Positions 18,527-63,734 of a stretch of 64,000 nt of DNA are shown here, piece by piece. The notes below the pieces were generated by a model. That model did no database searches, had not been told where the DNA came from, and saw only the letters and a list, made by a program, of their open reading frames with translations. The DNA lies in the NCBI GenBank assembly GCA_019456225.1, contig VRUI01000008.1, positions 31,254 through 95,253 on the forward strand, given 5' to 3'. The translations under genes were made by a program, and so were the position numbers. Position 1 is the first letter of the stretch. The number at the start of each line of letters is the position of its first letter. The stretch comes from Planctomycetota bacterium. GTDB taxonomy: Bacteria > Planctomycetota > Phycisphaerae > Sedimentisphaerales > Anaerohalosphaeraceae.

Positions 18527-18582
18527 CACTAATCGCCTAATGCTTATCGCTTATTGCTAATTGCTAATTGCTAATTACTAAT
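18527..18582 (-). repeat. Heptanucleotide array between gspH and gspI
   Basis: Eight consecutive 7-nt units on the plus strand read CACTAAT, CGCCTAA, TGCTTAT, CGCTTAT, TGCTAAT three times, and TACTAAT. The gspH stop (18571-18573) and its last residues lie inside the array. No GC-rich hairpin adjoins this copy. Confidence 0.85.
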
Positions 18583-19122
18583 CGCTCTCTTGCCGTCTTT
18601 CAGTTCAACCATTTCAAAATTCTCGGCGGGACCGTAACAAACTACGTCTACATAATTATCCGCTTCATCCTGCAATTCTATCCTGCACTGCCTGGAGTAC
18701 CCTTGGGGGCTGAAATCTATATACCATATTCCACCATCATTGGAAAAATTATCAAAATCTACTTCAATTTCCTTAGCAAGCTTGAACCTGCTTCCAAAAT
18801 CATTTTCAAGCCGCTTATATTCGCTCTTGTCAATCGACGAAAGCCAATATTCATAAGCACCATCTTCCAGCCGAAAATTCAGACGGTAAGGCCTGCTCTG
18901 ATACACAGACTGAACTTTCGCGTATCGCGCGACAGCAACGAGATGTTCCGCGGCATCTCTTATCTGCCTCGACGAGAAAAACCCGCGAAGCGAAGGCGCC
19001 GCCATCGCCAGCATGGTACACAGAATTATCATTACAAGTATCAGCTCCAGCAGCGTAAAACCGCCGGCCGGCACTGTGCGATAACTGCTAGTACCTGTCT
19101 TCTGTCCAGTTCTTGATATCAT
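18571..19122 (-). CDS. gspH: Minor pseudopilin GspH (second T2SS set)
   Basis: The ~183-residue protein has a leader ending PAGG before FTLLELILVMIILCTMLAMA and the GspH pattern SLRGFFSSRQIRDAAEHLVAVARYAKVQS. I start at the ATG at 19122, which overlaps the gspG end by 35 nt; the longer frame upstream is only the gspG shadow. The first gspG-gspH pair in the window has the same 35-nt overlap. The last residues (AISN) are encoded by a 7-nt repeat. Confidence 0.9.
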   Translation of the reverse strand: MISRTGQKTGTSSYRTVPAGGFTLLELILVMIILCTMLAMAAPSLRGFFSSRQIRDAAEHLVAVARYAKVQSVYQSRPYRLNFRLEDGAYEYWLSSIDKSEYKRLENDFGSRFKLAKEIEVDFDNFSNDGGIWYIDFSPQGYSRQCRIELQDEADNYVDVVCYGPAENFEMVELKDGKRAISN

Positions 19123-19519
19123 CGTCACCGCCACGCTGGCCGTCAGGGCCGGCAGAAAAAAGATCGTAACCATACTTGTTATACTGGCCCGGACGCTTAT
19201 ACACATAATCGTTGCCCCACGGATCTTTCGGGACGCCACGCTTGATATAAGGCTCTTTCCAGCCGTCCGCATTGGACGGTTTGATCACCAGTGCCCTGAG
19301 TCCTTCGCTGTTTGTCGGAAACCTGCCGCTATCGATCTCGAAGGTATCCAGTGCAAGCTCAAGATTGGCAATGTCCGTCTTTGCCGCCGTAACCTTTGCC
19401 TGTTCGCTTCGCCTCGTAAATTTGGGAACAATCACCGTAGCAAGTGTCGCCAGTATCACAAGAACAAGCAAAAGCTCGATAAGTGTAAATCCGTTACAAT
19501 TCCTTTTAATCCTTAGCAT
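19088..19519 (-). CDS. gspG: Major pseudopilin GspG (second T2SS set)
   Basis: The 143-residue protein is a textbook GspG: CNG before FTLIELLLVLVILATLATVIVP, then DSGRFPTNSEGLRAL, PKDPWGNDYVY and the acidic C-terminal loop AGPDGQRGGDDD expected to bind calcium. It is the main pseudopilus subunit of the second system. Confidence 0.97.
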   Translation of the reverse strand: MLRIKRNCNGFTLIELLLVLVILATLATVIVPKFTRRSEQAKVTAAKTDIANLELALDTFEIDSGRFPTNSEGLRALVIKPSNADGWKEPYIKRGVPKDPWGNDYVYKRPGQYNKYGYDLFSAGPDGQRGGDDDIKNWTEDRY

Positions 19520-19546
19520 AATTCGCCTCTCTGTCGTATATTAAAA

Positions 19547-20755
19547 TTACTGAATTAATTCCTGAAGATTGAAAATCGGCAAAAGCATACCGATCACAAC
19601 AGTTCCTACAAGCGCCGCCATAACAAAAAGCATAAGCGGTTCAGCAAGTGAAACTGCCATCTTGAGATTTCTGTCAAGTTCCTTTTCACCGGTCGTCGCC
19701 AGCCGCACCAACTCACCGTCAAGCCTGCCGCTCTCTTCTGCGACAGAGATCATTTCAATTGTAGACCCGCTGAAAAGGTCAGGGCAATCCCGAAGACTTT
19801 GCGCAAGAGATATACCCCTGCGAACCTTGCCAATCGCTTCGGTCAAAGTTTCGGCAAGCGTTTCATTTCCTATCGCCTCACGTGCCACCTTGAGCGCCGA
19901 AAGCAGCGGAACACCGGCATGGACAAGAGTACCAAGCATCCTGGCAAATCGAACAAAGGCAAACTTTGCCGTAAGCGCACCAAATACCGGCACCTTGAGA
20001 AGCAACCGCTCAAATGCCATCCGACCCTGGCGTCTTGAAAGATAGTTCTTAACAGACAACACAATAAATAATATCACACCAACCAGCAAAAGCCAATACT
20101 TCATAACCATCTCGCTGACAGATACGATACCCAGGGTAAGAGGCGGCAGCGTACCGCCGAACTCGGCGAAGATCGAAGAAAAACGCGGTATGAAATATAT
20201 AAGCAAAAACAAAAGTATTAGCCCGCCAAGAACCGCAAGTACGACCGGGTAAACCAGCGCCGCGACAACCTTGCTCTTTAAGTCCTGTTCTCTCGATCTG
20301 AAATCGGCGATCTGTTCGAGCACAAGCTCGATAAACCCGCCTGTTTCACCGGCACGTATCATCGCGACATACACCGGTGGAAATAACTTTGGCCAGTTAG
20401 CCAGCGAATCGGCAAGACTCATTCCGCCGACAACCTGGTCATGTATCGCCGTCCACTGCCTGCGAGCAGCCGGTTTGGTTGCCTCCCTGCTGATAATACT
20501 GAGCGCCTTACTCAATGACACCCCAGCCGAAAGAAGGCTCGAAAGCTCACGCGTAAACGCTTCGACCTCGCCCTTTGAAACACGTCCTTTAATCGCCTGA
20601 GCCTTTTTGCCTGACTGGACCGCTGCAACGATCTCCGACGGGAAAAGTCCCTTTGCCGAGATGATATCTACCACAGCACCGCGACTGGCGGCGCCGACAG
20701 TATCTTCGACAATATTGCCCAGGCTGTCAACTGCTTTGTATCGAAAATCAGGCAC
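19547..20755 (-). CDS. gspF: T2SS inner-membrane platform protein GspF (second T2SS set)
   Basis: The ~402-residue protein begins with the usual PDFRYKAVDSLGN and has two T2SSF domains (FTRELSSLLSAGVSLSKAL and FARMLGTLVHAGVPLLSAL), each followed by membrane helices, ending TVVIGMLLPIFNL. I chose GTG at 20755, which follows the gspE stop by 4 nt; an ATG at 20797 would add 14 unrelated residues inside gspE. Confidence 0.94.
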   Translation of the reverse strand: MPDFRYKAVDSLGNIVEDTVGAASRGAVVDIISAKGLFPSEIVAAVQSGKKAQAIKGRVSKGEVEAFTRELSSLLSAGVSLSKALSIISREATKPAARRQWTAIHDQVVGGMSLADSLANWPKLFPPVYVAMIRAGETGGFIELVLEQIADFRSREQDLKSKVVAALVYPVVLAVLGGLILLFLLIYFIPRFSSIFAEFGGTLPPLTLGIVSVSEMVMKYWLLLVGVILFIVLSVKNYLSRRQGRMAFERLLLKVPVFGALTAKFAFVRFARMLGTLVHAGVPLLSALKVAREAIGNETLAETLTEAIGKVRRGISLAQSLRDCPDLFSGSTIEMISVAEESGRLDGELVRLATTGEKELDRNLKMAVSLAEPLMLFVMAALVGTVVIGMLLPIFNLQELIQ

Positions 20756-20759
20756 CCGT

Positions 20760-22469
20760 TTATTCCTGTCCTTCCACAGCGGCGTTTCTAAAAACAAACT
20801 CGTCCTTCGTCACACGAAGTATCTCTTTAAGAGTCGTCTGTCCGCTATCTAAATATCGCCAAGCATCCTGCCGTAAACTTTTCATTCCATGTTTCATCGC
20901 CTCCTGACGTATGTCACGAGGAGTCGCATTTTTCAAAAGTAATGTCCGAATATCTTCCGTCACAACCATCAGCTCGAATATCCCCGCCCTGCCGTGATAA
21001 CCGGTCCCCTGGCACTTCTTACAACCGGTCGCAACATAAAGTTTTTCCGAAAGTTGATCGCCATAGCGATTCCTCAATGAATCAACTTCATTTTGCGGCA
21101 TCTGTTTCTTACAATGTTCACACAGCATCCGAATAAGCCGCTGAGCTATTACCGCCTCAAGCGACGATGCCACAAGATAAGGCTCTACGCCCATATCCAC
21201 CAACCGCGTAAGCGCCCCCGGAGCATCGTTTGTATGAAGTGTCGAAAATACCAGGTGACCCGTAAGCGATGCCTGCACCGCGATCTCTGCAGTCTCACGG
21301 TCGCGTATCTCACCGACCAGCACAACATCCGGATCATGCCTCAAAATCGACCGCAAACCCATCGCAAAAGTCAAACCCGTTTTGGTCGATACCTGTATCT
21401 GATTGATCCCGTACAACTGATACTCGATAGGATCTTCGATCGTAATAATTTTTCTTCCGATATCGTTAATATGCGAAAGGCCCGCATACAGCGTCGTAGT
21501 TTTACCGCTTCCGGTAGGCCCGGTTACAAGAATAATACCGTGAGGCCGCTTTACAACTTCACTGAAAACATAAAGATCGTCCTTAGACATGCCGACCTTT
21601 TCCGGGCCAAGCAGCACCGAAGATCTGTCCAGAAGCCTCATAACAACCGCCTCACCGTAGAGCATCGGAATAATAGATACACGAATATCTATCTCCCTGC
21701 CCGAAAGCATTATCTTGATCCTGCCGTCCTGCGGAACCCGCTTTTCGGCGATATCAAGATGACTGAGAATTTTTATACGCGAAACAATTGCCGGTTGAAA
21801 CTGCTTAACTTCAGCAGGAATCGTAGCGGCCTGCATAACACCGTCTACCCTGTACCGCACCCTCAGTTCATTCTCAAAAGGCTCAATGTGAACATCTGTC
21901 GCCCGCATCTCGACGGCTTCTGCCAATATCTGGTTAACAAAACGGATAATCGATGCGCCCTCGGCCGCTTCTGCAAGGTCGACATCTTCCTCCTGGTCCC
22001 TTATGAACTGTATACCGCTTTCCAGGGCCTCGTCATACATCGACTGGATAGTATCGGCACCAAGCCCGAGTGACCGCCGAATAAACGAAGCAATCTCTGC
22101 CCTTGGAGCGACTCCAACCTCAATATCCAGACCGGTCATAACCCGAAGCTCATCTATACCGGCTTGCTGGAATGGATTGCTTACTACCGCCAGCACACTG
22201 CCGTCTTCACGACGGACTGGAACGATCTGCCTTTTGAGCAGTATCTTCGCGGGCAGAGTCGAAATAAAGTCCGTCTCCAGCGAAACACTCTCGAAATTCA
22301 CATACGGATACTCGTATTCCGTGCTGACAAAATCAAGAAGAGCTTCTTCTGAGAGACCGCCGTCGGAAAAGGTATAGGCAGACTTGCCACCCTCAGAGCT
22401 GGCTTGGCGTAGCCATTGGACTCCTTTTTGACATAACGCAATATCAGTTGTATTGTTACTGTCTTGCAT
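20760..22469 (-). CDS. gspE: T2SS traffic ATPase GspE (second T2SS set)
   Basis: GspE is the cytoplasmic hexameric ATPase that powers pseudopilus assembly. The 569-residue protein has an N-terminal T2SSE_N domain (residues ~1-160), Walker A GPTGSGKTT at 317-325, Asp box EDPIEYQ, Walker B DPDVVLVGEIRD, the His box STLHTND, and a C-terminal zinc-type pair CEHC ... CKKC. It is first in the minus-strand operon E-F-G-H-I-J-K-L-M-C-D. No clear Shine-Dalgarno site precedes the ATG. Confidence 0.97.
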   Translation of the reverse strand: MQDSNNTTDIALCQKGVQWLRQASSEGGKSAYTFSDGGLSEEALLDFVSTEYEYPYVNFESVSLETDFISTLPAKILLKRQIVPVRREDGSVLAVVSNPFQQAGIDELRVMTGLDIEVGVAPRAEIASFIRRSLGLGADTIQSMYDEALESGIQFIRDQEEDVDLAEAAEGASIIRFVNQILAEAVEMRATDVHIEPFENELRVRYRVDGVMQAATIPAEVKQFQPAIVSRIKILSHLDIAEKRVPQDGRIKIMLSGREIDIRVSIIPMLYGEAVVMRLLDRSSVLLGPEKVGMSKDDLYVFSEVVKRPHGIILVTGPTGSGKTTTLYAGLSHINDIGRKIITIEDPIEYQLYGINQIQVSTKTGLTFAMGLRSILRHDPDVVLVGEIRDRETAEIAVQASLTGHLVFSTLHTNDAPGALTRLVDMGVEPYLVASSLEAVIAQRLIRMLCEHCKKQMPQNEVDSLRNRYGDQLSEKLYVATGCKKCQGTGYHGRAGIFELMVVTEDIRTLLLKNATPRDIRQEAMKHGMKSLRQDAWRYLDSGQTTLKEILRVTKDEFVFRNAAVEGQE

Positions 22470-22517
22470 AGATCAAACTAAAAAGGACTATTAAAGACTC
22501 TAAATCCCATGTAGTTA

Positions 22518-22550
22518 GGGACATGAAATGAAATTATCGGAACATGTCCC
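22518..22550. promoter_or_regulatory. Inverted repeat upstream of gspE
   Basis: GGGACATG at 22518-22525 and CATGTCCC at 22543-22550 form 8-bp arms around a 17-nt spacer, 49 bp upstream of gspE. It could be an operator or an RNA hairpin. No promoter boxes are clear. Confidence 0.4.
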
Positions 22551-22654
22551 GCATACAATTAAATCAGGTTGGGCTGCCACGGCTATATCGACGATTTAAT
22601 GTTACCATTTCACATCAATATAACCAAATAACAGGTCTTTTATTGGGAAACAGA

Positions 22655-22690
22655 CAAATAAAGCGGAATCCGAATTATACCGGATTCCGC
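22655..22690 (-). terminator. Rho-independent terminator of the 22731-23378 gene
   Basis: On the minus strand a 10-bp perfect stem (GCGGAATCCG / CGGATTCCGC, 8-nt loop) is followed by TTTATTTG. It lies 40 nt past the stop of the exported-protein gene and so separates it from the T2SS operon. Confidence 0.8.
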
Positions 22691-22730
22691 ATAAAACCTG
22701 ATAATTAACCAAATTTTCTTACACAATCAT

Positions 22731-23584: not shown

Positions 23585-23630
23585 CTGGCTGCTCCGTTTT
23601 TGGCAGTCTTTGGAATTAGATACTCCCTAT

Positions 23631-25321: not shown

Positions 25322-25509
25322 ATATACTTCTATCCTGGATTTGCCGTATAACGTTTACAAAATATAATTCAGTCCTTTCGATGCTAATATTTTACCAAAT
25401 TAATCCTGAACTATCAAGGCTTCTCTTTTAATGGGGAAATCCGGGTTTAATTATGTTTTTTTTCGCAGATTGTCCTTAGGTTATTTCTCAGGCCAACTAA
25501 AATACCCCT

Positions 25510-25560
25510 GGGGTCTTTGTTTTCATGGGGTCTTTGTTTTCATGGGGTCTTTGTTTTCAT
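25510..25560. repeat. Three exact copies of a 17-bp tandem repeat
   Basis: The unit GGGGTCTTTGTTTTCAT is repeated three times without change, in the otherwise featureless 25322-25625 gap between the ACT gene and the DUF362 gene. Identity of the copies points to recent expansion. Confidence 0.95.
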
Positions 25561-28578: not shown

Positions 28579-28589
28579 TAAAATAGTCT

Positions 28590-28662
28590 CCGCCAAAGGC
28601 GGTTTCCTTCATTAGACATTATACAATAATCATTATACATTCCAGGCTGACCAACAGGTCAG
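28590..28662 (-). repeat. Heptad-hairpin module between oppC and oppD genes
   Basis: Read with transcription: hairpin CTGACC-N4-GGTCAG, five 7-nt units (plus-strand CATTAGA, CATTATA, CAATAAT, CATTATA, CATTCCA), then AAGGAAA and hairpin CCGCC-TTT-GGCGG, which runs into the oppD ribosome site. The same AAGGAAA plus hairpin recurs near 53.1 kb. Confidence 0.8.
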
Positions 28663-28668
28663 TCTGGG

Positions 28669-29871
28669 TCATGCCGCTTTCCTTAGTCTTGGATCGATCG
28701 CGTCTCGAAGGCCTTCGCCTACAAGATTGTAGGCGGTAACAGTTAAAAATATCGCAAGGCCGGGAAACAGAGAAAGCCACCACAAAAAACGCCCTGTCGT
28801 GCCGACACCGAGGCTAAGCATCTGGCCCCAGCTCGGCGTAGGCGGCGCAACTCCGAACCCCAAAAAGCTCAAAGCAGCCTCAATAAAGATAGCACCGGCA
28901 ATTCCAAACGTCGCGTTAACCAGAACCGGGGCGATACCGTTGGGAAGCATGTGCCTGAAAAGCAAACTGCGAAGCGGCAGACCCAATGCCCTTGCCGCCT
29001 GAACAAAATCCTGACCGCGAAGCCTGAAAAACTCGGCACGAATAAACCTCGCGTCGCCTGTCCACTTGGTAACGCCGATAATTATCATAATATTCAGCAG
29101 GCTCCTCGGGAAAAACGCGACAATCGTGATGATCAGGAAAAAAGTCGGTATCGCCATCATGATCTCGACAAAACGCATTCCAATAAAATCGACCTTGCCT
29201 CCGAAATACCCCAGGATGGCCCCGATAAATACGCCGATCACACTTGATATCCCCACAGCGACAAACCCGACCGAAAGCGATATCCTGCTGCCGTGAATGA
29301 GTCTGCAAAGAACATCGGCCCCGACATCATCGGTCCCAAGCCAGTGCTCGGCGCTGGGCCCCTGCTCACGAACGGCAAGATCGGTACGCTCAAACCCGAA
29401 CGGCACCAACGGGAAAACAGCACCGGTCGCCTTTTTCGATTCAACCATTCGCTTATAATTGGTCGCGTCAAGCCGCTTATCCAAAGACACAAAGATGAAA
29501 ACTATCCCGGCGACAAGTACAAACGCATTGATCATGATCTGCCTGCTGAGCACCTCACCACGCCGCGTGGGGTTGACCCGTTTTTTGTTTCGCCGTATAA
29601 GCCAAATCTGAAATAATCCAACGATCGCTGCCAGAAAAACACTGTAATCGACAGCGTTAAGATTACGAAGTAGTGGAAACGTAAGCTCACCGTCAATACG
29701 AATCACCAGGGGTTTGTCGTTAGCGATAAAAGGAGCGAACACGGCAATGGCAAAAAGAAAGATAATAAAAACAAGACTAACAACATTAAGCCGGTTCTTA
29801 AAAAACTCACGAGAGACCATCTCCCCATAAGAAACGCCCCAGTCTGTATGTTGTTTAATAGTTTTACTCAT
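28669..29871 (-). CDS. Peptide ABC transporter permease, OppC/DppC-like, with insertion
   Basis: The 400-residue permease has an N-terminal helix (VVSLVFIIFLFAIAVFAPFIA), the family mark GTDDVGADVLCRLIHGSRISLSVGF and the cytoplasmic EAA loop (FIRAEFFRLRGQDFVQAARALGLP in part), ending in DAIDPRLRK. Between the first helix and GTDD it carries about 100 extra residues with two more hydrophobic segments (VFLAAIVGLFQIWLI and INAFVLVAGIVFIFVSL), so it is longer than the usual ~300 residues. Confidence 0.93.
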   Translation of the reverse strand: MSKTIKQHTDWGVSYGEMVSREFFKNRLNVVSLVFIIFLFAIAVFAPFIANDKPLVIRIDGELTFPLLRNLNAVDYSVFLAAIVGLFQIWLIRRNKKRVNPTRRGEVLSRQIMINAFVLVAGIVFIFVSLDKRLDATNYKRMVESKKATGAVFPLVPFGFERTDLAVREQGPSAEHWLGTDDVGADVLCRLIHGSRISLSVGFVAVGISSVIGVFIGAILGYFGGKVDFIGMRFVEIMMAIPTFFLIITIVAFFPRSLLNIMIIIGVTKWTGDARFIRAEFFRLRGQDFVQAARALGLPLRSLLFRHMLPNGIAPVLVNATFGIAGAIFIEAALSFLGFGVAPPTPSWGQMLSLGVGTTGRFLWWLSLFPGLAIFLTVTAYNLVGEGLRDAIDPRLRKAA

Positions 29872-32649: not shown

Positions 32650-32679
32650 ATCAGCACCGTTTCGATTTATAATTTATAA

Positions 32680-34470: not shown

Positions 34471-34539
34471 AGCTAATCGCTGTTGAGCGAAGCGAAATCC
34501 GCCATAGGCGGACTAATTGCTAATTACTTATCGCTAATA
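34471..34539 (-). repeat. Heptad-hairpin module after the HEAT-like gene
   Basis: On the plus strand four units ACTAATT, GCTAATT, ACTTATC, GCTAATA (34512-34539) are preceded by hairpin TCCGCC-ATA-GGCGGA (34498-34512) and an outlying AGCTAATCGCT. The stop of the upstream gene (34524-34526) lies inside the array. Confidence 0.82.
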
Positions 34540-35675
34540 ACCGGCGCCGAAAGCCGCTTAGGAGCAATTATTTGCTTACTTCCCGGCTTTCCATAATGAT
34601 AATTCAACTCAGAGCCCAACCTTCCTGCCCTTGAAGCGTTTCCAAGCAGCGAGTCATGCTCATTGCCAAGCGACACGAGAGAACGCGGGTTGGAATTACT
34701 TACTAATCGCTTGATTTGGTTTTGATTTTGCCCAAGCAATTTAGAAATCGAGGTTTGTTCGACATCGGCAAGTACAAAGGCAAGCTGAGCCTTCTGAGAA
34801 GCATCCAGCGTCTGAATGCCAAGAATATAACGCTGCATCACATAAGAATACAACTGTCCAAAACGCCTGGCAATTTCAGCGATTTCTTTTTTGCTGCCGG
34901 TTTTGCCGGATTTAATACTTCGAGCAAGAGAGTTAAGCAATCCCGCGTCCATAAGCTCAAACTTCACCTTCCACGCGGCATACAATTCAATACGCACATC
35001 GGCAATACGAACAAGCAAAGCATCGGCCTGGGGGGTATCAAGTGCATCGGCAAAACCAACAATAAGGTTAAGGATCTCAGGGAGTGTCTTGTCATTGATC
35101 ATCTTTTCAAATTTCGATAAGATCTGCTTAACCAGTTTGGGATCGCCTATCACTTTTGATTTCAGTTGAGATGATATCGCACTGTTAGCGACAGAACTGA
35201 CCGCCCAATACCTCACCGCCGCGTTTTCATCGTCAACCATAGACATGCCGACAGGAGCAAGCTCCATACTTTCAACCTGTGTAAGAAGGATAAGCAGATT
35301 AAGTTTCAACTGGATCTTACGCGATTGATCACTTACCCCGGCAACATTTGCCAGTGCCGGTTGAAGGCCTTTCTTTAGCGCCGACGAAAAAGCCAGAGAA
35401 TACTGGGTGGGCTTTTTCTTGATGGACCGCGAAACTATCTCGCCCCGGATTTCAGCCATTTCCTTAAAATCCACAGCATTGACCAGTTCGTTCAGGGATA
35501 TGGAGATAAACTTGTCGATAACTTTCTTATCGCTGGCAATAATTTTACCGCCTGCAGACTTGGCTTTTCGAAAAACCACATCGATCTCACGCGAGTCAGC
35601 CGCCAAAACCACCGAATTTGTGCAAAAAACAACCGCCAGAACAATAAAAACAAAATAAAATCGCTTTTTAGCCAT
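34524..35675 (-). CDS. Exported helical-repeat protein of unknown function
   Basis: From ATG 35675 the ~383-residue protein has a signal peptide (FYFVFIVLAVVFCTNSVVLA) and an almost all-helical body. The stretch NAAVRYWAVSSVANSAI is HEAT-like. The C-terminal ~60 residues are low in hydrophobics. An earlier in-frame ATG at 35744 would place the signal internally. I do not recognise a functional family. The last residues fall in a 7-nt repeat. Confidence 0.78.
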   Translation of the reverse strand: MAKKRFYFVFIVLAVVFCTNSVVLAADSREIDVVFRKAKSAGGKIIASDKKVIDKFISISLNELVNAVDFKEMAEIRGEIVSRSIKKKPTQYSLAFSSALKKGLQPALANVAGVSDQSRKIQLKLNLLILLTQVESMELAPVGMSMVDDENAAVRYWAVSSVANSAISSQLKSKVIGDPKLVKQILSKFEKMINDKTLPEILNLIVGFADALDTPQADALLVRIADVRIELYAAWKVKFELMDAGLLNSLARSIKSGKTGSKKEIAEIARRFGQLYSYVMQRYILGIQTLDASQKAQLAFVLADVEQTSISKLLGQNQNQIKRLVSNSNPRSLVSLGNEHDSLLGNASRAGRLGSELNYHYGKPGSKQIIAPKRLSAPVISDK

Positions 35676-45747: not shown

Positions 45748-45789
45748 TTGGTTATTCGATATTCCTTGTTCGTTATTGGATATTCGCTT
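45748..45789. repeat. Heptanucleotide array between convergent genes
   Basis: Six 7-nt units on the plus strand: TTGGTTA, TTCGATA, TTCCTTG, TTCGTTA, TTGGATA, TTCGCTT. They lie 13 nt before the stop of the minus-strand cotransporter gene. No GC-rich hairpin is attached. Confidence 0.75.
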
Positions 45790-45801
45790 TTTCTTTAAGA
45801 A

Positions 45802-47676: not shown

Positions 47677-47721
47677 GCCTCCACCGAATGCGGTTTCACA
47701 AGCTAATCGCTAACCTAATAT
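47677..47721 (-). repeat. Degenerate heptad-hairpin module after the 47715-48065 gene
   Basis: AGCTAAT, CGCTAAC, CTAATAT (47701-47721) contain the stop of the upstream gene. Next in the transcript comes GTGAAACCGCATTCGGTGG, a decayed version of the CCGCC-TTT-GGCGG hairpin seen elsewhere. Confidence 0.6.
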
Positions 47722-48065
47722 CTCTCGCCAAGCGAAGAAGATATCACACAAACGAGTTTCCCGCAGCAAAGAGTCGCCGCCCCGCTGCTGTCAACCATCA
47801 GTTTTGCCTGCTCAACATCAAAATCAGCGGCAAGTTCGTTAATAACCTCAATACGGCTCCACGGAATAATACGCAATTCATAAGTCCCTTCGCGAACATC
47901 CTTCAAGGCATTGACCCGCCTGCCGTAATGAAAAGTCTTGCATTTAATCCGAACATAATTATCGGTTATCCCCATAACCAAACCGACAAAGATATGGTTA
48001 TGCGCATCAGGATAATCCTTAACCGTCCGGATCTTCCACACTAAAGTCTTTTTCTTTTCGTCCAT
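47715..48065 (-). CDS. Small conserved-looking protein of unknown function
   Basis: The 116-residue product has no signal or membrane segment. It is rich in beta pattern (HNHIFVGLVMGITDNYVRIKCKTFHYGR in part; YELRIIPWSRIEVINELAAD). The layout of strands recalls a small SH3/Sm-like barrel, but I do not recognise a family. It follows the inositol-phosphatase-like gene by 23 nt on the same strand. Confidence 0.65.
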   Translation of the reverse strand: MDEKKKTLVWKIRTVKDYPDAHNHIFVGLVMGITDNYVRIKCKTFHYGRRVNALKDVREGTYELRIIPWSRIEVINELAADFDVEQAKLMVDSSGAATLCCGKLVCVISSSLGERY

Positions 48066-51152: not shown

Positions 51153-51263
51153 ATAATGTATCCGTACAAATAGACCGGTGAGTATAAAATTAAATAAGAG
51201 AGTGCATTAGACGAAAGTTCGGTGCTTTTGTCAATGATGAGGTTGAGAAATGACTGTTTTTTT

Positions 51264-51291
51264 TGCTAATCGCTAATTGCTAATTGCTATT
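51264..51291 (-). repeat. Heptanucleotide array at the stop of the 51280 gene
   Basis: Plus-strand units TGCTAAT, CGCTAAT, TGCTAAT, TGCTATT. The gene's stop codon (51280-51282) and its last residues (NSN) lie inside. The units are nearly the same as in the array at 18.5 kb. Confidence 0.82.
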
Positions 51292-53034
51292 TTTCTTCTT
51301 CTCCATCTCAATTAACTTATTTTCCGTGTTTTTTAGCTTCTCGAAAAGATCAGGCCGTTCCACCTCTAACCTGTTCTTCAAGCCCTGCTTCATAATCGCG
51401 GGATAGTAAGGATCCTTCAAGAAATCCTGCAGAGCCATATAGCTCAGCATGTTAAAGCTGGGAAGATCAACGCGCTTGACTTCTTCATCGCCATAGAGGG
51501 CGACATAGTGCTTATAAAGTTCCTTCGCAAAATTCTCTCTGCCGAACGCTTCATTGTCCTGATTGTTGGCATAAAGAAAATACGACTCCCGCAGCGACAT
51601 CATCAACTGTTCGGTCGCGTCATGTATCTCAAGGTCCCTGATCTCTTCTTTCATCCGATTCCGAACGAAGGCAAGAAGGCTAATCTTATAATCATCCCTC
51701 AAATAAAGATCACGCAATTTTAAGTATAATTTCCCGGCCTTAGCCTTGTGCCCGGCCTGATAAAAAGAATACACACCGTTTTCCAGCATATTTTTATGAC
51801 CGCCCATAACCGCTTTAGGATTCGACCCTTCCATGAGAAGGTACTTGCTGATCTTTTCCTGCCAGACGCGGTCACAAACATCAAACATCCGCATATCCGG
51901 ACGCAGATAAACACTGGGCAGTTCTCCCGGTATCGGGTAAACGAGAATCCTTCCCATCCTGTAGAGCTTTTGCAAGCTGTGAAAAACAATTCTGTCCGTA
52001 TTTTTCTCGTCAACGGAATACTCGCCCGGCTTACCGGCACGAACGAGACCAAGCTCTGCCCAGTAGATCGCGTGAACGTCCGGGTGCTCCCAGTTAAGCG
52101 GAGCAATGTCCTCCGGGTTCGTCAACGAGACAGGCCCGTATTTCTCGTTAAGCTTATACATAAATTCGATATCTAACTTCCACTCATTACGCAGCAAATA
52201 CGCCCTTGCAAAAACGTCCAGCTTTTCGAGTGTTTCCGTACCACGCCAAAGGTCGACAACGTCAAAAACCTTTGGATCAAATTGCTCCGGACTTAGATTC
52301 AGATAGCTCACCGCAAGGTCTTTATCCTTTTCAAACTGCCCGTCGACTTCTCTAAGTGCGGCAACAAGTTTGGCAACTTCGACGTCCTTCAAAAGCTCCT
52401 TAACTTCCCTGGGCGCACTCATAAGTTTCTTAAAGTCACCCTGCGTTACTTCTTCATAATATCCGGAAGGATTAATAAGCTTTCTCATTGCCAGGGCAAG
52501 TTCCCGCTTGTAATGCTTATGACAATCGTCGGTCACCCCGCCGATCTTATGCTGGAATATCCACGAAAGAGACCTGTAAAGAAGGATCGAATTAGGATTT
52601 TCCTTTATCCCTTTGTCACGCAAAAGCTCATACCCGTTGCGAACCCACATCCAGCGTTCCTCCCACTGATCCCTTGGGACCGACACCGAAATATTATACG
52701 CCATGTTCCAGGCCTGAAAATCCCACACCGGCGCAAAGTTCGACTGTAGTGTAGTGATCCATTCGGCGATCAGCAGTGCATCGAAGAATTGTCCCTCTTC
52801 CTTAAGCTTTTCCGCACGCATCCACAGAATATCAACCGCCACACCCCGAAACGGACCCATCGCAACCGATGCAAAAACCTTCCCGGCCGGAACTTTCTCA
52901 ATATCCAGAACACTGACAAGTTTCAGATCAACCTGGGCCTTATGAAGACTGTCAAGCCGACTCGATGCCCCAACAAGCAGCACAACCGCCAGTAAAACAC
53001 AAACAAAACGAACTATAGTATCATGCAAACGCAT
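51280..53034 (-). CDS. Membrane-anchored protein of unknown function, 584 aa
   Basis: One N-terminal helix (FVCVLLAVVLLVGASS) is followed by a largely helical periplasmic-type body with Trp/Tyr-rich helices (LWMRAEKLKEEGQFFDALLIAEWITTLQ in part) that read like TPR units. I do not recognise a family. It directly follows the ABC-2 exporter genes on the same strand, so it may belong to that export system. Confidence 0.78.
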   Translation of the reverse strand: MRLHDTIVRFVCVLLAVVLLVGASSRLDSLHKAQVDLKLVSVLDIEKVPAGKVFASVAMGPFRGVAVDILWMRAEKLKEEGQFFDALLIAEWITTLQSNFAPVWDFQAWNMAYNISVSVPRDQWEERWMWVRNGYELLRDKGIKENPNSILLYRSLSWIFQHKIGGVTDDCHKHYKRELALAMRKLINPSGYYEEVTQGDFKKLMSAPREVKELLKDVEVAKLVAALREVDGQFEKDKDLAVSYLNLSPEQFDPKVFDVVDLWRGTETLEKLDVFARAYLLRNEWKLDIEFMYKLNEKYGPVSLTNPEDIAPLNWEHPDVHAIYWAELGLVRAGKPGEYSVDEKNTDRIVFHSLQKLYRMGRILVYPIPGELPSVYLRPDMRMFDVCDRVWQEKISKYLLMEGSNPKAVMGGHKNMLENGVYSFYQAGHKAKAGKLYLKLRDLYLRDDYKISLLAFVRNRMKEEIRDLEIHDATEQLMMSLRESYFLYANNQDNEAFGRENFAKELYKHYVALYGDEEVKRVDLPSFNMLSYMALQDFLKDPYYPAIMKQGLKNRLEVERPDLFEKLKNTENKLIEMEKKKNSN

Positions 53035-53081
53035 ATAATTTCTCGTAACTTACCTACTATTGTTTCAGCTACACTTTTGTC

Positions 53082-53211
53082 ATCCCGGGCTCGACCCGGG
53101 ATCCAGAATAAAAAAAGCCTCCGCCAAAGGCGGTTTCCTTCTTATCTTTTAAATCTTTTCTCTTTATCTTTTCTTCATGCCCTTCATGCTGCTTCTTCAT
53201 GGCCTTCATGG
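53082..53211 (-). repeat. Composite intercistronic repeat upstream of the 51280-53034 gene
   Basis: In transcript order: four CATGAAG boxes, A/G-rich heptads, AAGGAAA with hairpin CCGCC-TTT-GGCGG (53121-53133), then a perfect palindrome ATCCCGGG-N5-CCCGGGAT (53082-53102). The hairpin and its flank match the module at 28.6 kb almost exactly. Confidence 0.78.
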
Positions 53212-55858: not shown

Positions 55859-55867
55859 AGAACTGCC

Positions 55868-55925
55868 TCGGCCGCAAGGCCGAATCCAAAATTCGTAATT
55901 AGTAATTCGTAATTAGTAATTGTTT
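55868..55925 (-). repeat. Heptad-hairpin module between P-type ATPase and ABC ATPase
   Basis: Plus-strand heptads ATTCGTA, ATTAGTA, ATTCGTA, ATTAGTA start 1 nt past the P-type ATPase stop side; the hairpin TCGGCC-N4-GGCCGA (55868-55883) lies 10 nt before the ABC ATPase start. In the transcript the hairpin reads GGATTCGGCC-N4-GGCCGAGGC without the N4 being conserved. Confidence 0.85.
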
Positions 55926-57857: not shown

Positions 57858-57922
57858 AGTTCCTTATCTCTAAAACAATCTATCAGGATAAACTTAAATA
57901 CTAGTCCTTCACTCAATAGTCT

Positions 57923-57985
57923 CCGCCGAAGGCGGTTCCATATTTTTCTTTTCTCTTTTAACTCTTTTCTCTCATTTTCCTCTGT
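57923..57985 (-). repeat. Heptad-hairpin module between SPFH and P-type ATPase genes
   Basis: Hairpin CCGCC-GAA-GGCGG (57923-57935) next to a T/C-rich run with 7-nt period (TTTTTCT, TTTCTCT, TTTAACT, CTTTTCT). The transcript flank GGCGGAGACTATT is the same as at 28.6 kb. Confidence 0.7.
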
Positions 57986-58044
57986 GGCAAAATAACCGCC
58001 AAAAGAACAAAACAACATGACAAAAGTAGTAAGCAAACCACTTA

Positions 58045-59310: not shown

Positions 59311-59331
59311 AATATATCTCGTAAAAATGCC

Positions 59332-59387
59332 TCGGCCGACAGGCCGAATCCTTAATTAGTAATTCGTAATTAGTAATTAGTAATTGC
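59332..59387 (-). repeat. Heptad-hairpin module between hflC and the HflK-like gene
   Basis: Plus-strand heptads TAATTAG, TAATTCG, TAATTAG, TAATTAG, TAATTGC (59353-59387) include the hflC stop (59377-59379) and its last residues. Hairpin TCGGCC-N4-GGCCGA lies at 59332-59347, 22 nt before the next start. Confidence 0.87.
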
Positions 59388-60285
59388 TTTTCTTCTTCGG
59401 CTTGATATCAGGGATCCCTTTGAGCAGATTGATAATATCTATATCACTGCCGAGGATAATTGTGGTTTTCCCGTCGATTATATCCTTCAGGGTCTCGATA
59501 TTCTGGAGGTACATGGCAAACTCCGGTTCCTCGTCGAGCATCTTATAATACTTAGCAGCCTCTGCGTCACCTTCACCGCGGATCGACTTGGCATAACCTT
59601 CGACAACTGCCAGAAGTTGCGCAGACTTTGAGTCTGCTTCGGCCTTGATCTTTTCCGCAACCGAACCGCCCTCCCCGATAATACTTTCGGTCTTACGCGT
59701 ACGTTCGGATTTCATCCGGTCAAAAACTTTTGCCGTAACATTTTTGCTTATCCCGATCCGGCTGATTCCAACGACCTCAATATCGATACCGAAATTCTCA
59801 AGAGCCTGTTCTCGGATGTTCTTATGCATATTTTCTTCGATCGCGGCAAGCTGGATCTTATCTTTATCAGAGTTAACAAACTCGCTGAAATAATGCTGAC
59901 CGATCTCAACATTCTGAACGTTCAGCAAACGGTCCCTCAAAAGCCTTATAGCATCTTCGTCATTCTTAACCGACTCGAGATACTTCTGGGGTTCTGCGAT
60001 CTTCCAGACAAGGTAACTGGTCACGCGAATATTGTCGGCGCCGCGAGTGGTGGTCTCGGTTTCCCGGCCTTTAAGCAGCTTACTGCGAGAATCGAACTTA
60101 ATAACGCTTTCGATAGGCGCAGGCCACTTCCAGTAAAAACCCGGTTTCCCAACCTTTTCCCGGGAAACTTCACCAAACCTGGTAACAAGAGCACTCTCTG
60201 TCTCTCTGACCTGGTAAGAAACCGAGCAAAGAATCAGAACCAAAACGATCAAAACCAAAAAAACCAAAATCGAAACATTCTTCAT
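59377..60285 (-). CDS. hflC: SPFH/Band 7 protein, HflC-like
   Basis: The 302-residue protein starts with a membrane helix (ILVFLVLIVLVLILCSVSY), then ETESALVTRFGEVSREKVGKPGFYWKWPAPIESV, RDRLLNVQNVEIGQHYFSEF and ERTRKTESIIGEGGSVAEKIKAEAD (in parts), the order found in HflC. It probably forms a complex with the SPFH proteins before and after it. The final residues SNY are encoded by a heptad array. Confidence 0.9.
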   Translation of the reverse strand: MKNVSILVFLVLIVLVLILCSVSYQVRETESALVTRFGEVSREKVGKPGFYWKWPAPIESVIKFDSRSKLLKGRETETTTRGADNIRVTSYLVWKIAEPQKYLESVKNDEDAIRLLRDRLLNVQNVEIGQHYFSEFVNSDKDKIQLAAIEENMHKNIREQALENFGIDIEVVGISRIGISKNVTAKVFDRMKSERTRKTESIIGEGGSVAEKIKAEADSKSAQLLAVVEGYAKSIRGEGDAEAAKYYKMLDEEPEFAMYLQNIETLKDIIDGKTTIILGSDIDIINLLKGIPDIKPKKKSNY

Positions 60286-60357
60286 ATCAAAGCATCCTAA
60301 ATACGTATAAAATTAATTTTCCGTAGTGTAGGCTTCTAGCCCACATATTAAATAGCC

Positions 60358-60415
60358 TCGGCCGAAAGGCCGAATCCTAAATTCGTAATTTGTAATTCGT
60401 AATTCGTAATTAAAT
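60358..60415 (-). repeat. Heptad-hairpin module between the large SPFH gene and hflC
   Basis: Plus-strand heptads ATTCGTA, ATTTGTA, ATTCGTA, ATTCGTA, ATTAAAT end 2 nt from the upstream gene's stop. Hairpin TCGGCC-GAAA-GGCCGA is at 60358-60373, in the same orientation as in the two neighbouring modules. Confidence 0.86.
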
Positions 60416-60417
60416 CT

Positions 60418-62490
60418 CTATTCGAGTTCTTCGAGATCAAGATCATACATACTGGGAGCAAGCGTCTCTTCCAGATCGATAATAAACACCTGCTTCTTCT
60501 CGTCATCGCTAATGATAACATACTTACGCGTTTCACTAAGCGACTCTTTAAGCATCTTAAGCCGCAGGATCTTTTTGTATATCGCCGGAGACGCCCTGTA
60601 AGCCTTAACCTGTCCGGCAAAACGTTTTCCCGTAGCCTCGGCGAGTGCAACCTTTTCAAAAGCGTATGCCTTAGCCTCCGAGATAATCCTGTAAATCTTG
60701 CCGCTGGAGCTTTCCAGTGCCTTGTCCAGTTCTTCGCCCAGTGCCTTGATAGTTTCCGCGTCACCGGATTCGTTAGCTTTCTGGTACTTCTCGGCGAGCG
60801 AATACAGCACGTCAACCTGGGCCACCGACCCGCCAAGTGCGGTAAGGATTTTATTACGTGCTGCCTGCGCGTCCATTATTAATGCCTGTTTCTGCTGAAT
60901 TGCACCGACAACCTGCTGATATTCTTCAGCAACTTCCGAAGGAGGATGAACACCCTGCAATCCGAGAAATATTATCTCGACTCCAAGATCCGCACTATCG
61001 GCCGCTTTCTGGATACGGCTTTTAAGAATCTCACCGGCTAACTTTCGGCCTGCTCCAAGAAGACTTTCCTTTCCGCTGTCAACCTCATCGGTTTCGATAG
61101 TCGCACTGCTGGCATAGCTCGTAAGCTCACGGTTACAGATTGCCTCAAGCATTCCCCTGGCATCGGCATGATTATACATGAACTTGCGAAGATCGTTGAT
61201 CTTATACTTAACCGGAATAGCTGCCACAACCAGACTGACAGGAACTGTACCGTCCTCGTCACGACCGGAACCGGTATGTCCTTTGGAAGCGACCAGAAGC
61301 GGATATTCTTCACCGTAATGCTTTTCACCCCAAAGCATAGGCTTGAGGATCTCTTTACCGTACTTATCCCTTGCAACTTCCTCGTCATCTTTCTTCTCGA
61401 CAAACCCAATGTTTACCTGCTGGATCTGAGTCGTCGGATAAATATAAGCTTTGTCAAACGGATACGGCAGCTTTAATGTCATACCAGGTTTGGCGATGCG
61501 GTCAAAAGAACCAAGGTGTTCGATAACACCCTCTTCGCCCGGTGATACCACCACTACGCAGCTAAGCAAATACAACACAACAACACCTACCATCACCAGC
61601 GGGATGATCGCCTTGGCAAGAAGCTGATAGAACCACGTCTGCGAAACTTTGAAACCAAACTGGTAATCGACGGAACTGGCGAACGAATGAAGTATCCCGC
61701 CAGGCTCGCTGATCGCGCCAAGCAAACGGCTGTCAAATGCACTGCGCCCATACTGACCCTTGATACGGGGACGGTAAATATCCATAACTGAATTTAACGC
61801 CGTCTCGCCTCCAAGAACAATAAGAGCTATCGGAATAGCCCAACTGACAATCGTCAAGACTCCGCTAAAATTAAATGAAGCAAATGCCAGCGATATCGCA
61901 AGAGCAAAAGCAAGCACCGCCGTCGCCAAAAAACTGCTGCCCCCTGCACGCAAAGGCTTCCACTTTCTTTCGGAACTCATCCCCGTCATGTATCGGGAAA
62001 GCAAAAATGCGACAAACGCGATGATCACAAGAAAAACAGAATGCAAACGAGGCGCCGAAAGATCCCTGAACAACGCACCGGTATCGCTTGACTTGAGCGA
62101 GAAAAACAAAAACAGACCAAGACCGATCTGATAGGCCGCTATTACAACCCCGAAGATCGGAATAAACCACTTCTCAAGAATCGCAAGCTGCTTTTGAGCA
62201 CTCTCAAACATCGCCATACGGTTGGCGTCGGACTGAAATATGGTATTGGAATCCTTAGCCCGCTCAAGCTGACCCTTTTCAAGCTTCTCACGCTCGGCAA
62301 GACTCTGCTGATGCAGTTGAACTGCAAGAACAAAAAAGATCAAAACTCCGGCAAGGATCTGCCAACTCAGCGCAAAGGCTGCAATGGCTCCCGAAAAAAT
62401 ACCGATAAGCATTGTACATACAAAAAAGATTATGCTCAAACCGAGCGACGCCAAGGCAACGTTTTTTGCCCGTTTAGACGATATGTTCAT
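60418..62490 (-). CDS. Large SPFH/Band 7 protein with multi-helix N terminus
   Basis: The 690-residue protein has about seven hydrophobic segments in residues 1-320 (for example LGLSIIFFVCTMLIGIFSGA, IIAFVAFLLSRYM, LLAKAIIPLVMVGVVVLYLL), then an SPFH domain (SPGEEGVIEHLGSFDRI; LKLPYPFDKAYIYPTTQIQ) and a coiled, acidic end (EETLAPSMYDLDLEELE). HflK proteins normally have one helix, so the membrane part is an added domain. It is the first gene of the minus-strand SPFH run. Confidence 0.87.
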   Translation of the reverse strand: MNISSKRAKNVALASLGLSIIFFVCTMLIGIFSGAIAAFALSWQILAGVLIFFVLAVQLHQQSLAEREKLEKGQLERAKDSNTIFQSDANRMAMFESAQKQLAILEKWFIPIFGVVIAAYQIGLGLFLFFSLKSSDTGALFRDLSAPRLHSVFLVIIAFVAFLLSRYMTGMSSERKWKPLRAGGSSFLATAVLAFALAISLAFASFNFSGVLTIVSWAIPIALIVLGGETALNSVMDIYRPRIKGQYGRSAFDSRLLGAISEPGGILHSFASSVDYQFGFKVSQTWFYQLLAKAIIPLVMVGVVVLYLLSCVVVVSPGEEGVIEHLGSFDRIAKPGMTLKLPYPFDKAYIYPTTQIQQVNIGFVEKKDDEEVARDKYGKEILKPMLWGEKHYGEEYPLLVASKGHTGSGRDEDGTVPVSLVVAAIPVKYKINDLRKFMYNHADARGMLEAICNRELTSYASSATIETDEVDSGKESLLGAGRKLAGEILKSRIQKAADSADLGVEIIFLGLQGVHPPSEVAEEYQQVVGAIQQKQALIMDAQAARNKILTALGGSVAQVDVLYSLAEKYQKANESGDAETIKALGEELDKALESSSGKIYRIISEAKAYAFEKVALAEATGKRFAGQVKAYRASPAIYKKILRLKMLKESLSETRKYVIISDDEKKQVFIIDLEETLAPSMYDLDLEELE

Positions 62491-62714
62491 TTAGATTTCC
62501 CTGTTCTTAACTGTCATAATCATTATTAAAGTGCCAAAACGCACCTTTATATAACGAACAAATTCTTGCTTAATTGTGTATCCAGTAATAATTCGCTGGC
62601 AAAATGTGCTTAAAAAAATTCAAAAAAATAAATTTCAGTTGCTTTTATTTTTTATTTTGGCGTAATATACCAGTATAACGCAAGTAAGTGTAGTATTTAA
62701 TTCAGGAAAATACA

Positions 62715-63680
62715 GTGATTAACAAACTTTTTACAGTTGCCAAAAACACCTTCACCGAAACTCTAAGACAACCGGTTTACAGCGTTATACTTGCATTTGC
62801 GCTGTTTTTGTTTATCCTGAGCCCATCAATAACGATGTACTCACTTGACGAAGACATAAAACTTCTTCGTGAGATTGGACTTTCTACGCTTTTTATAACG
62901 GGATTGTTCATTGCTATTTTTTCGGCAGCGTCTGCTGTCACCGAAGAAATTGAATCTAAGACCATTACTACTGTGCTTTCAAAACCTATTGGGCGGCCGA
63001 CTTTTATCTTCGGCAAATTCCTTGGGGTTTCTGCAGCTGTTGCCCTGGCGCACTATATTTGCTCGATAGCGTACCTTATGATAGTACGACACGGGGTACT
63101 GGAGACGGCTAGCGATACCCATGACTGGCCGGTGATAACCGTCGCGGCATTTGCATTATTGCTGGCTTTTCTGCTAACTGCTTTCCTGAACTACTCTTAC
63201 GACTGGAACTTTTTGTCGACAATGGTGAAAGCGGTAGCGATTTTGGGCACGGTCGGGCTGATAATTCTGTCGATTTTCGATAAGGAATGGCACTTCAACC
63301 CTGGGGATAACCATATTGAGATATTCGATATTAACGCTGCGGTGTTGCTTTTGCTAGCCGTGATATTGCTGGTTTCGCTGGCTGTGATGTTCTCAACCCG
63401 CTTTAACGTGGTGTTAACGCTTGTTTTTTGTGTTGGTGCGTTTTTGATGGGGCTTATTAGCGATTTTGTTTTTTCACGTAACGCCGATGAGCATTGGTGG
63501 GCTAAGGTTGGCGAGGTGGTTACGCCTAACCTGCAGGTGTTCTGGATCAGTGATGCAATTTACGAGGGAAGCGATATACCGGCAAGCTATATCATCGATA
63601 GCGGCGTCTATACGGCGTTTTATGCAGGGGCAATACTATTATTGGCAATAGCAATGTTCCAAAAACGGCAAGTTGGATAG
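62715..63680 (+). CDS. ABC-2 type transporter permease (second copy)
   Basis: The 321-residue protein has six membrane segments and the N-terminal signature TEEIESKTITTVLSKPIGRPTFIFGKFLGV (in part), similar to the permease at 53242 but without the large soluble insert. It starts at GTG 62715 with AGGA upstream. The ATPase partner is not adjacent in the window. It is divergent from the SPFH run with a 224-nt spacer. Confidence 0.88.
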   Translation: MINKLFTVAKNTFTETLRQPVYSVILAFALFLFILSPSITMYSLDEDIKLLREIGLSTLFITGLFIAIFSAASAVTEEIESKTITTVLSKPIGRPTFIFGKFLGVSAAVALAHYICSIAYLMIVRHGVLETASDTHDWPVITVAAFALLLAFLLTAFLNYSYDWNFLSTMVKAVAILGTVGLIILSIFDKEWHFNPGDNHIEIFDINAAVLLLLAVILLVSLAVMFSTRFNVVLTLVFCVGAFLMGLISDFVFSRNADEHWWAKVGEVVTPNLQVFWISDAIYEGSDIPASYIIDSGVYTAFYAGAILLLAIAMFQKRQVG

Positions 63681-63734
63681 CTCAAACTGCACAGCAGTTT
63701 GAGGGATTTCAGATTTCGGATTCGGCTTTGCCGA
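63681..63734 (+). repeat. Hairpin-heptad-hairpin module after the plus-strand permease
   Basis: Directly after the stop: perfect stem CTCAAACTGC-ACA-GCAGTTTGAG, heptads GATTTCA, GATTTCG, GATTCGG, then hairpin TCGGC-TTT-GCCGA. The last part reads GGATTCGGC-TTT-GCCGAGGC, as in the minus-strand modules, but here on the plus strand, matching this gene's direction. Confidence 0.8.

Follow-up and report, generated by a model that had tools for sequence, protein, structure and literature searches.

Double-hairpin elements with a heptanucleotide linker lie at stop codons in a Planctomycetota genome and are probably mobile

The 64,000-nucleotide (nt) stretch of Planctomycetota DNA considered here (the window; contig VRUI01000008.1, positions 31,254 to 95,253) belongs to a draft genome of 4.45 Mb in 152 contigs, hereafter G000, and carries short arrays of 7-nt units at the ends of several genes, some of them joined to hairpins. 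An earlier note on this DNA had drawn attention to twelve such sites, described as strict 7-nt arrays. The observation is split in two here: period-7 arrays at large, and a defined double-hairpin element, in which a left hairpin, a linker of heptads and a right hairpin follow one another in fixed order, and which we consider likely to be mobile. A period-7 array was called strong if at least 17 of 21 bases matched the base 7 positions on, and the scores of the following features refer to this scale.

60355..60411, minus strand: element without left hairpin; heptads 60380-60411 (AATTACG/AATTACA); right hairpin GGATTCGGCC-TTTC-GGCCGAGGC at 60355-60377; score 19/21.
59329..59389, minus strand: element without left hairpin; heptads 59351-59389, with the stop of gene 59377-60285 within the array; right hairpin with loop TGTC at 59329-59351.
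55865..55924, minus strand: element without left hairpin; heptads 55887-55924; right hairpin with loop TTGC at 55865-55887.
57919..57972, minus strand: AG-rich heptad-like array (57943-57972) with a variant right hairpin, stem GGAACCGCC-TTC-GGCGGAGAC, at 57919-57939.
53078..53176, minus strand: AG-rich tract (53139-53176), variant right hairpin GGAAACCGCC-TTTG-GGCGGAGGC (53117-53138) and a separate hairpin TGTCATCCCGGG...CCCGGGATCC (53078-53106).
28586..28667, minus strand: full element; left hairpin 28642-28667, heptads 28609-28641 (AATGTAT/AATGATT class), variant right hairpin GGAAACCGCC-TTTG-GGCGGAGAC at 28586-28607.
63682..63737, plus strand: full short element; left hairpin TCAAACTGC-ACA-GCAGTTTGA at 63682-63702, about two heptads, right hairpin GGATTCGGC-TTT-GCCGAGGC at 63718-63737.
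18538..18587, minus strand: heptad array only (CGATTAG/CAATTAG/CAATAAG), no hairpin noted; score 20/21; stop of gene 18571-19074 within the array.
51260..51294, minus strand: heptad array only (CAATTAG), no hairpin noted; score 19/21; stop of gene 51280-53034 within the array.
34472..34541, minus strand: CTAATTG-type array; units at 34472-34481 and 34513-34541, split by hairpin TCCGCC-ATA-GGCGGA (34498-34512) and a shorter hairpin; score 14.
45751..45797, no strand assigned: degenerate 7/21-nt array (GTTATTC/GATATTC) in a convergent gap, no hairpin noted; score 14/21.
47696..47723, no strand assigned: two to three loose CTAATCG-like units at a gene end; score 10/21, with periods 5 and 9 also at 10; not above chance.

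Five of the twelve sites are indeed strong (18527, 51264, 55868, 59332 and 60358), and to this extent the picture of a dozen strict arrays is borne out. It does not extend to 47677 (10) and 53082 (12), which do no better than other periods; of the rest, scoring 13-15, one is mixed, three stand at 14 and one at 13. Among random 140-nt pieces drawn from the window, 2.6% attained a score of 14 at period 7, and 0.3-1.0% did so at periods 5, 8, 10, 11 and 13. The mixed site is 57923, where the period is unclean, with a score of 15 at period 7 and of 15 and 16 at periods 8 and 9, while at 53082 period 7 lies under periods 9 and 11. Two low-scoring sites, 28590 and 63681, are nevertheless modules as claimed, both being full elements by context (left hairpin, two to four heptads, right hairpin). 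The former (14/21) starts 1 nt past the stop of gene 28669-29871. The latter, which had been singled out as a plus-strand module, starts 1 nt past the TAG (63678-63680) of gene 62715-63680, and is recognised only by its hairpins and their order, periods 6 and 9 equalling its score of 13/21. Considering that the stop of gene 51280-53034 falls inside its array, the last residues of this protein are array-encoded. In G002, a relative of the same family and a different genus, the orthologue of gene 59377-60285 has a different end, and the gap orthologous to 53078..53176 holds an element with other heptads. A further array of the window, at 32660 (ATTTATA type, 15/21), was absent from the earlier list, and the words of the separate hairpin at 53078-53106 recur after an element in L074, such that it may represent a further repeat family.

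Arrays at large were counted in 560,301 bases (83% coding), composed of the window and 40 further stretches chosen by contig number, not by repeat content. Forty-three period-7 arrays reached 17/21, every one of them intergenic (more than 40% of each array's length outside called genes). At the same threshold, periods 5, 6, 8, 11 and 13 gave 1, 4, 5, 1 and 0 arrays, and periods 9 and 10 gave 13 (4 intergenic) and 11 (10 intergenic), respectively; periods 14 and 21 are multiples of 7. First-order Markov shuffles of intergenic DNA returned no array in 20 rounds. As other periods are few and the shuffles give none, the 7-nt step is a genuine feature that prevails in this genome, yet it is not absolute. 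By their exact 7-nt tandem units and their intergenic location, the arrays belong to the bacterial heptanucleotide tandem repeats (STRR, or long simple sequence repeats). In codirectional gaps, 16 of 33 start at most 10 nt past the stop where 10.0 would be expected (P 0.008), and 6 of 33 end at most 10 nt from the next start where 9.9 would be expected (P 0.06). Lowering the threshold to 16/21 yields 60 arrays, 43 of them codirectional, with a strict hairpin 3' in 11 and 5' in 3 of the 43, compared with 4.2% of random intergenic pieces; an adjoining hairpin is present in only about one quarter of period-7 arrays. The previous assertion that a hairpin usually follows the array consequently fits the window but not the genome, and the seat of arrays at or inside stop codons, strong for full elements (see below), is only moderate for arrays at large.

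The double-hairpin element is far more sharply defined. From 5' to 3' it comprises the left hairpin TCAAACTGACC-nnnn-GGTCAGTTTGA, the heptad linker and the right hairpin GGATTCGGCC-nnnn-GGCCGAGGC, and its 3' end is T-rich; in full it measures about 60-110 nt, with a linker of 14-42 nt made of 7-nt units. The exact right hairpin occurs 65 times genome-wide, as opposed to 0 and 1 matches of the reversed pattern on the two strands, and the contexts of all 65 copies were collected and inspected. Left hairpins with up to three mismatches number about 90 against 0 in the control, the near-palindrome giving 89 and 91 matches on the two strands. Heptads, called at 11 or more of 14 matches within 60 nt, stand 5' of the right hairpin in 51 of the 65 copies and 3' of it in a single one, and periods 5, 6 and 8-11 give 0-1 per side. 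Judged by a consensus score, a left hairpin accompanies 41 of the 65 (0 of 65 when shuffled); this score replaced a generic search for 9-bp left stems, dropped with matches in 51 of 65 real and 34 of 65 shuffled contexts. The linker is quantised, being 7n or 7n+1 nt long in 37 of the 41 elements with both hairpins, and the distance between hairpins is 14-15, 21-23, 28-30, 35-36 or 42 nt in 39 of them. The other two, at 60-61 nt (L069 and L120), contain a nested hairpin within the array. A hairpin of about 32 nt (TTCCCGACGTAAAGCCGGGATGTTCCAT and TTCCGTCAATACTGCCGGATGTACCAT) is nested in the heptad arrays of four elements, in L069, L094, L112 and L120.

Three heptad classes (unit types AATTACG, TTATTGA and TAATGTA) account for 30, 19 and 13 of the 65 elements, with 3 others, and these classes occur at unrelated loci with common hairpins. 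Different heptads between the same hairpins make the classes look like subfamilies of a copied element. The idea that units differ from site to site while the layout is kept thus holds for the three classes of G000, and other units are found in other genomes. Conservation sets in abruptly at the base before CAAACTGACC, that is at (T)CAAACTGACC, and fades about 12 nt past the right hairpin. The left stem exhibits compensatory changes, such as T-A to C-G and C-G to T-A, and pairing is kept in at least 36 of 41 elements at nine of ten positions and in 24 of 41 at the tenth; right-stem variants CGGCC/GGCCG and CCGCC/GGCGG are seen by eye. With some 90 left hairpins, and with window variants that have another right stem, the elements must number more than the 65 counted. 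A longer form also exists, with a conserved tail past the right hairpin (around ATGCAAACTCTTTAATTGTAATGGTTTATGTTGTTTT) that ends in a GGTCAGTTTGAGT-like arm (L063, L088, L096, L099, L104 and L106; L046 from about 392), and a further copy of the left-hairpin arm ends 6 of 12 aligned long-tailed elements. Terminal inverted repeats as in miniature inverted-repeat transposable elements were considered; in the standard element the sequence at one end differs from that at the other. That heptads supply stops in all frames was rejected as a general rule, AATTACG runs having no stop in the sense direction.

The elements are also placed and oriented non-randomly. Using a hexamer-scored gene caller for the final calls, 43 right-hairpin elements in codirectional gaps run with transcription and 6 against it (P 6e-8), where an earlier longest-open-reading-frame caller gave 32 and 7; the others lie in divergent gaps (5), in convergent gaps (5), inside a called gene of the same strand (3) and at contig ends (3). 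Of the 30 codirectional full elements, 28 have their 5' edge between -13 and +15 nt from the upstream stop, while the uniform expectation is 13.4 and the maximum in 20,000 draws was 22, and the same placement is seen in 11 of the 13 full elements with at least 80 nt free downstream. The stop ends 0-15 nt upstream of the element in 20 of these cases, lies inside it in 8 (six times at the TGA of the element's first arm), and is 144 and 674 nt distant in the remaining 2. From the 3' edge to the next start the median is 60 nt. Where the neighbour is convergent, all five full elements likewise lie at the preceding gene's stop (-14 to +5 nt); of six other full elements, 3 run against transcription and 2 lie in divergent gaps, none of these five having a sense gene before it, and 1 has no neighbour in its stretch. 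Thus, stop-codon enrichment and an orientation with transcription, both anticipated by the earlier note, are present in the genome sample and among the 65 right-hairpin elements.

Next, the two strands of the element were compared for folding. Loops of the GNNA type are stable, and on the antisense strand they close 44 of the 65 right hairpins (35 of them GNRA) and 15 of the 31 left hairpins with four-base loops, compared with 0 of 65 and 0 of 31 on the sense strand. Mispairs in the left stem are G-T wobbles on the antisense strand in 21 cases and on the sense strand in 5. Predicted energies likewise favour the antisense strand for the left hairpin (31 vs 6 with RNA, 29 vs 9 with DNA energies), for the right hairpin with RNA energies (44 vs 19) and for whole elements with DNA energies (33 vs 6). 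It is chiefly because stable loops and wobbles lie on a strand that is absent from the mRNA that we favour a mobile single strand rather than a signal in the mRNA.

The right hairpin was looked for in 59 genomes (G000 and relatives) and in 397 genomes of the class (one mismatch allowed; G002 outside that draw), and no same-genus relative of G000 was among the relatives searched. The hairpin is present in 4 of the 59, namely G000 and the three relatives G002, G038 and G024. Of the 397, 6 have it, G000 included, five of them in the same order and the sixth with a single match bearing a mismatch. All 18 exact right hairpins of G002, G038 and G024 have heptads 5' by eye, and 14 have genes of their own orientation on either side. 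The units there comprise GGCATAA, AGTTATG, AAAAATC, AGTCGTT and others not seen in G000 elements, and AATGTCT, which is near one G000 class. Among the matches listed (80 of at least 113), no other named match to the hairpin pattern reaches 14/21 at period 7 in the 70 nt 5' of it, and these are therefore taken as chance; in L145 (Planctomycetes GWC2_45_44) heptad-like units precede the hairpin by eye, with a period-7 score of only 10. Arrays are dense in G024, with 21 in 160 kb (13 in the first 40 kb), 20 of which are intergenic, while samples of 20-60 kb from nine other relatives hold 0-2, with 1 in G002 and 0 in G038.

A seven-gene stretch of G002 is collinear with the window at 50-79% protein identity. 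The gap g4|g5 contains the element 55865..55924 in the window and 28 nt without such an element in G002, whereas in g1|g2 both genomes carry a right hairpin and heptads that differ between them, with a left hairpin in G002. The persistence of old elements at conserved sites was also considered: at 11/14, arrays are found in 5 of 6 orthologous gaps of the window and 3 of 6 of G002, two of them common.

Differences between closer relatives were recorded for G024, for which three of eight 20-kb stretches, selected for having arrays, were compared with two species of the same genus, G034 and G053. The 24 orthologous codirectional gaps (45 comparisons) include five with G024 arrays, and in 9 of 10 comparisons at these five the relative falls below the threshold. 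The excess of the G024 gap at array sites has a median of 92.5 nt, compared with 0 in 33 array-free comparisons (P 2e-4), the relatives' gaps measuring -35 (the start being perhaps misplaced by the caller), -4, -4, 12, 12, 13, 17, 44, 70 and 154 nt. Within one genus, then, entire arrays are present in an operon of one species and absent from that of another, and in compact operons an array necessarily lands beside a stop codon. Several G024 elements are palindromic heptad elements (L257 2246-2337 and 11148-11241; L283 7065-7157 and 10567-10659), and those of L257 lie close to additional GCCACAAAGACAC-type inverted repeats, which may form a miniature element of their own. In G053, period-8 arrays are seen by eye, so that the 7-nt step is not universal; in L291 and L292 of this genome such arrays (TAAAGAAG type) have inverted partners and occupy gaps that hold period-7 arrays in G024 or G034.

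Aggregated, these findings make it probable that the modules are copies of a short non-coding element, which mostly starts at stops and runs along transcription; it is likely mobile, and the form predicted to move is a folded single strand, antisense to the mRNA. An RNA role and a mobile repeat class had both been suggested before; the latter is supported by the sharp 5' end, the subfamilies at unrelated loci and the presence or absence of arrays in G024, and the former is disfavoured by the antisense loops and wobbles. Copies would move via transposition or retro-insertion by an enzyme supplied in trans, which may recognise the two hairpins, and the linker could lengthen or shorten by whole units through slippage. 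The array differences between species would then be gains, and the seat at stop codons might reflect either insertion aimed at gene ends or selection sparing mainly such insertions.

Several observations weigh against mobility of this kind. No mover enzyme was found among the Y1 transposase and reverse transcriptase candidates examined. The genome has five Y1 transposase (Y1_Tnp) genes, and within up to 1.5 kb neither hairpin occurs near any of them and one array (16/21) lies beside one; such genes are present in 34 of 40 genomes, G000 included, array-rich and array-poor alike, so as a mover the enzyme is not discriminating and does not evidently track the arrays among relatives. Reverse transcriptase was rejected as well, being present in 16 of 40 genomes, G000 included, but a search of two carriers, G024 and G038, did not find the domain. 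Inspection of the printed flanks by eye showed no target-site duplication, although no systematic search was made and the 3' end is fuzzy. As to the folded strand, 15 of the 21 antisense wobble cases share a single stem position and may go back to one change passed on by descent, and significance is missed by the right hairpin with DNA energies (43 vs 22, P 0.19) and by whole elements with RNA energies (25 vs 16, P 0.12). For the window's own element there is a single empty gap, in the different-genus G002. The G024 arrays are mostly palindromic (heptads, hairpin, inverted heptads) rather than of the two-hairpin form, and this presence/absence evidence therefore concerns heptad elements of the order rather than the window's own subfamily. 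Moreover, the G024 differences are not polarised by an outgroup, such that loss in the relatives is possible, and gain is inferred because the relatives' gaps are tight. Some gaps are less tidy: that of 44 nt (G034) has a short remnant scoring 13, that of 70 nt (G053) a period-8 array of other sequence, and that of 154 nt (G053) shares an array with G024, with a second array nested by eye, while in a sixth gap G034 has the array and G024, at 12, lies below the threshold. Finally, a truncated gene would also give a called stop inside the element, as seen in 8 of 30, and orientation and stop placement could also stem from selection for mRNA function.

The last point is the core of a different account, in which the modules would serve the host as cis-acting RNA elements: a post-stop hairpin pair would protect, process or attenuate mRNA between cistrons, and selection would keep it at gene ends in sense orientation. 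The sense orientation (43 vs 6), a stop-codon placement above uniform expectation and the occurrence of a hairpin-heptad element in gap g1|g2 of both G000 and G002 are in line with such a function, as is the T-rich tail GGCTATTTTAT, which follows the right hairpin as a broken U-tract and resembles a weak intrinsic terminator. However, the GNNA loops and most of the wobble-tolerant pairs are on the antisense strand, the presence is as patchy as 6 of 397 class genomes and 4 of 59 relatives (G000 in both counts), and related arrays differ in presence between same-genus species in the same operons. We consider this account unlikely on these grounds; the window also has no match to any Rfam family, which carries little weight where an element has yet to be described. 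Ordinary simple-sequence repeats, generated by replication slippage with a preferred 7-nt step (a proposal ascribed to Mrazek 2007 in the available parts of PMC4679880 and PMC4692102) and with the hairpins as bystanders, would agree with linker lengths that differ by whole units, with the lack of an adjoining strict hairpin in most arrays of the genome, and with the fact that in many bacteria no long simple repeat is commoner than the heptad (cited in the same parts of these two papers). Yet slippage leaves unexplained the fixed two-hairpin order around the array, the common units at unrelated loci (classes of 30, 19 and 13 of 65), the orientation, and the whole 70-160-nt differences between species. 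It is already disfavoured for the hairpin elements, and we find it very improbable overall.

Least credible to us is a third account, that the elements are relics of REP/REPIN-like sequences which a Y1 (RAYT) transposase mobilised. The elements are short extragenic palindromes, mostly between codirectional genes, in a genome that does encode Y1_Tnp, and REPs are known from Planctomycetes, mainly downstream of genes (according to the portion available of PMC3733652), but no conserved GTAG or CGTC tag stands 5' of the left or 3' of the right hairpin, and the five Y1 loci, with neither hairpin and only the one array nearby, as well as the absence of an evident correlation between Y1 genes and arrays among relatives, speak against it.

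Returning to mobile copies that move as a folded antisense strand, a more far-reaching proposal may be formulated, which we advance as a doubtful one: a mobile DNA class aimed at stop codons, with a folded antisense copy, sense insertion at gene ends, and units freely rewritten while the 7-nt step is kept. If this were true, and if the stop-codon heptamers of Xanthomonas and Nostoc were the same, one unrecognised copying machinery with a 7-nt step would span bacterial phyla. The 7-nt step and the gene-end seat of heptamer repeats have long been noted in unrelated bacteria without a settled explanation. Heptads as the linker of a defined polar element provide ends that can be cloned, bound and moved, and in genomes of this kind insertions may rewrite the gaps of operons, the stop codons and the C-termini of proteins.

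The window has further features apart from these elements. Two gene sets of type II secretion or pilus type lie on opposite strands at 4195-22469 (T2SSK, a sub-threshold T2SSL, secretin, PilN and GspE-like), an imperfect 18/54-nt tandem repeat occupies 11269-11378 in the 3' part of the secretin gene, and three perfect 17-nt tandem copies (TGGGGTCTTTGTTTTCA) lie at 25509-25560 between called genes.

Among known systems, the closest are the small dispersed repeats (SDRs) of Nostoc punctiforme and relatives, which Elhai and colleagues reportedly described in 2008 as hairpins of about 20-27 nt with compensatory stem changes, often inside tandem heptamers, and which are said to be mobile, probably via RNA intermediates. 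Going by this description, both are short hairpins whose stem is kept by compensatory change (here the left stem, at 36 or more of 41 at nine positions) and which accompany heptamers (here at 51 of 65 right hairpins, on one side only). Compared by description only, the present element differs in its phylum, in the two different hairpins that flank the heptads in fixed order, and in its quantised linker, stop-codon placement and sense orientation. The double-hairpin elements of fungal mitochondrial DNA, reported by Paquin and colleagues in 2000, are likewise said to be two adjacent hairpins, short, dispersed and, by inference, mobile; they are organellar and GC-rich, and are not known to have a heptad linker.

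A link of heptads to gene ends, which the earlier note did not know of, is already published: according to the available part of Rehm et al. 2015 (PMC4692102), GGGNATC and GGGGAYT heptamers of Xanthomonas and Nostoc lie within 50 bp of stops or overlap them, on the sense strand. As far as this part goes, they share with our arrays the period of 7, about four units, the intergenic location between codirectional open reading frames and the rarity between divergent ones, but they are G-rich and quadruplex-forming, while the units here are AT-rich and without GGG or GGGG per unit (3 of 65 being unclassed); flanking hairpins are not described in that part, and those heptamers are generally not with mobile elements. 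The TAACTGA direct repeats of Beggiatoaceae, cyanobacteria and Bacteroidetes (MacGregor 2015, PMC4679880, in the part available) are similarly tandem heptamers, intergenic, patchy across phyla and possibly mobile; in contrast to ours they have one fixed unit, lie mostly just upstream of starts in the main genome, and come with no hairpin pair in the part at hand. REP and REPIN sequences, as presented in the accessible sections of PMC3116915 and PMC3733652, are short extragenic palindromes mainly downstream of genes and are regarded as mobile DNA in miniature; a GTAG or CGTC tag is present on most REPs, and a REPIN consists of two inverted copies of one REP, unlike the two differing hairpins and the lack of a conserved tag here. 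Two hairpins in fixed order tied to heptads were not found in the literature searched, part of which was available in excerpt, and such a paper may exist; as far as this literature could be read, the two-hairpin frame with its quantised linker, exact stop seat and strand asymmetry is novel. On balance, the element is best read as probably akin to the cyanobacterial SDRs in heptamers.

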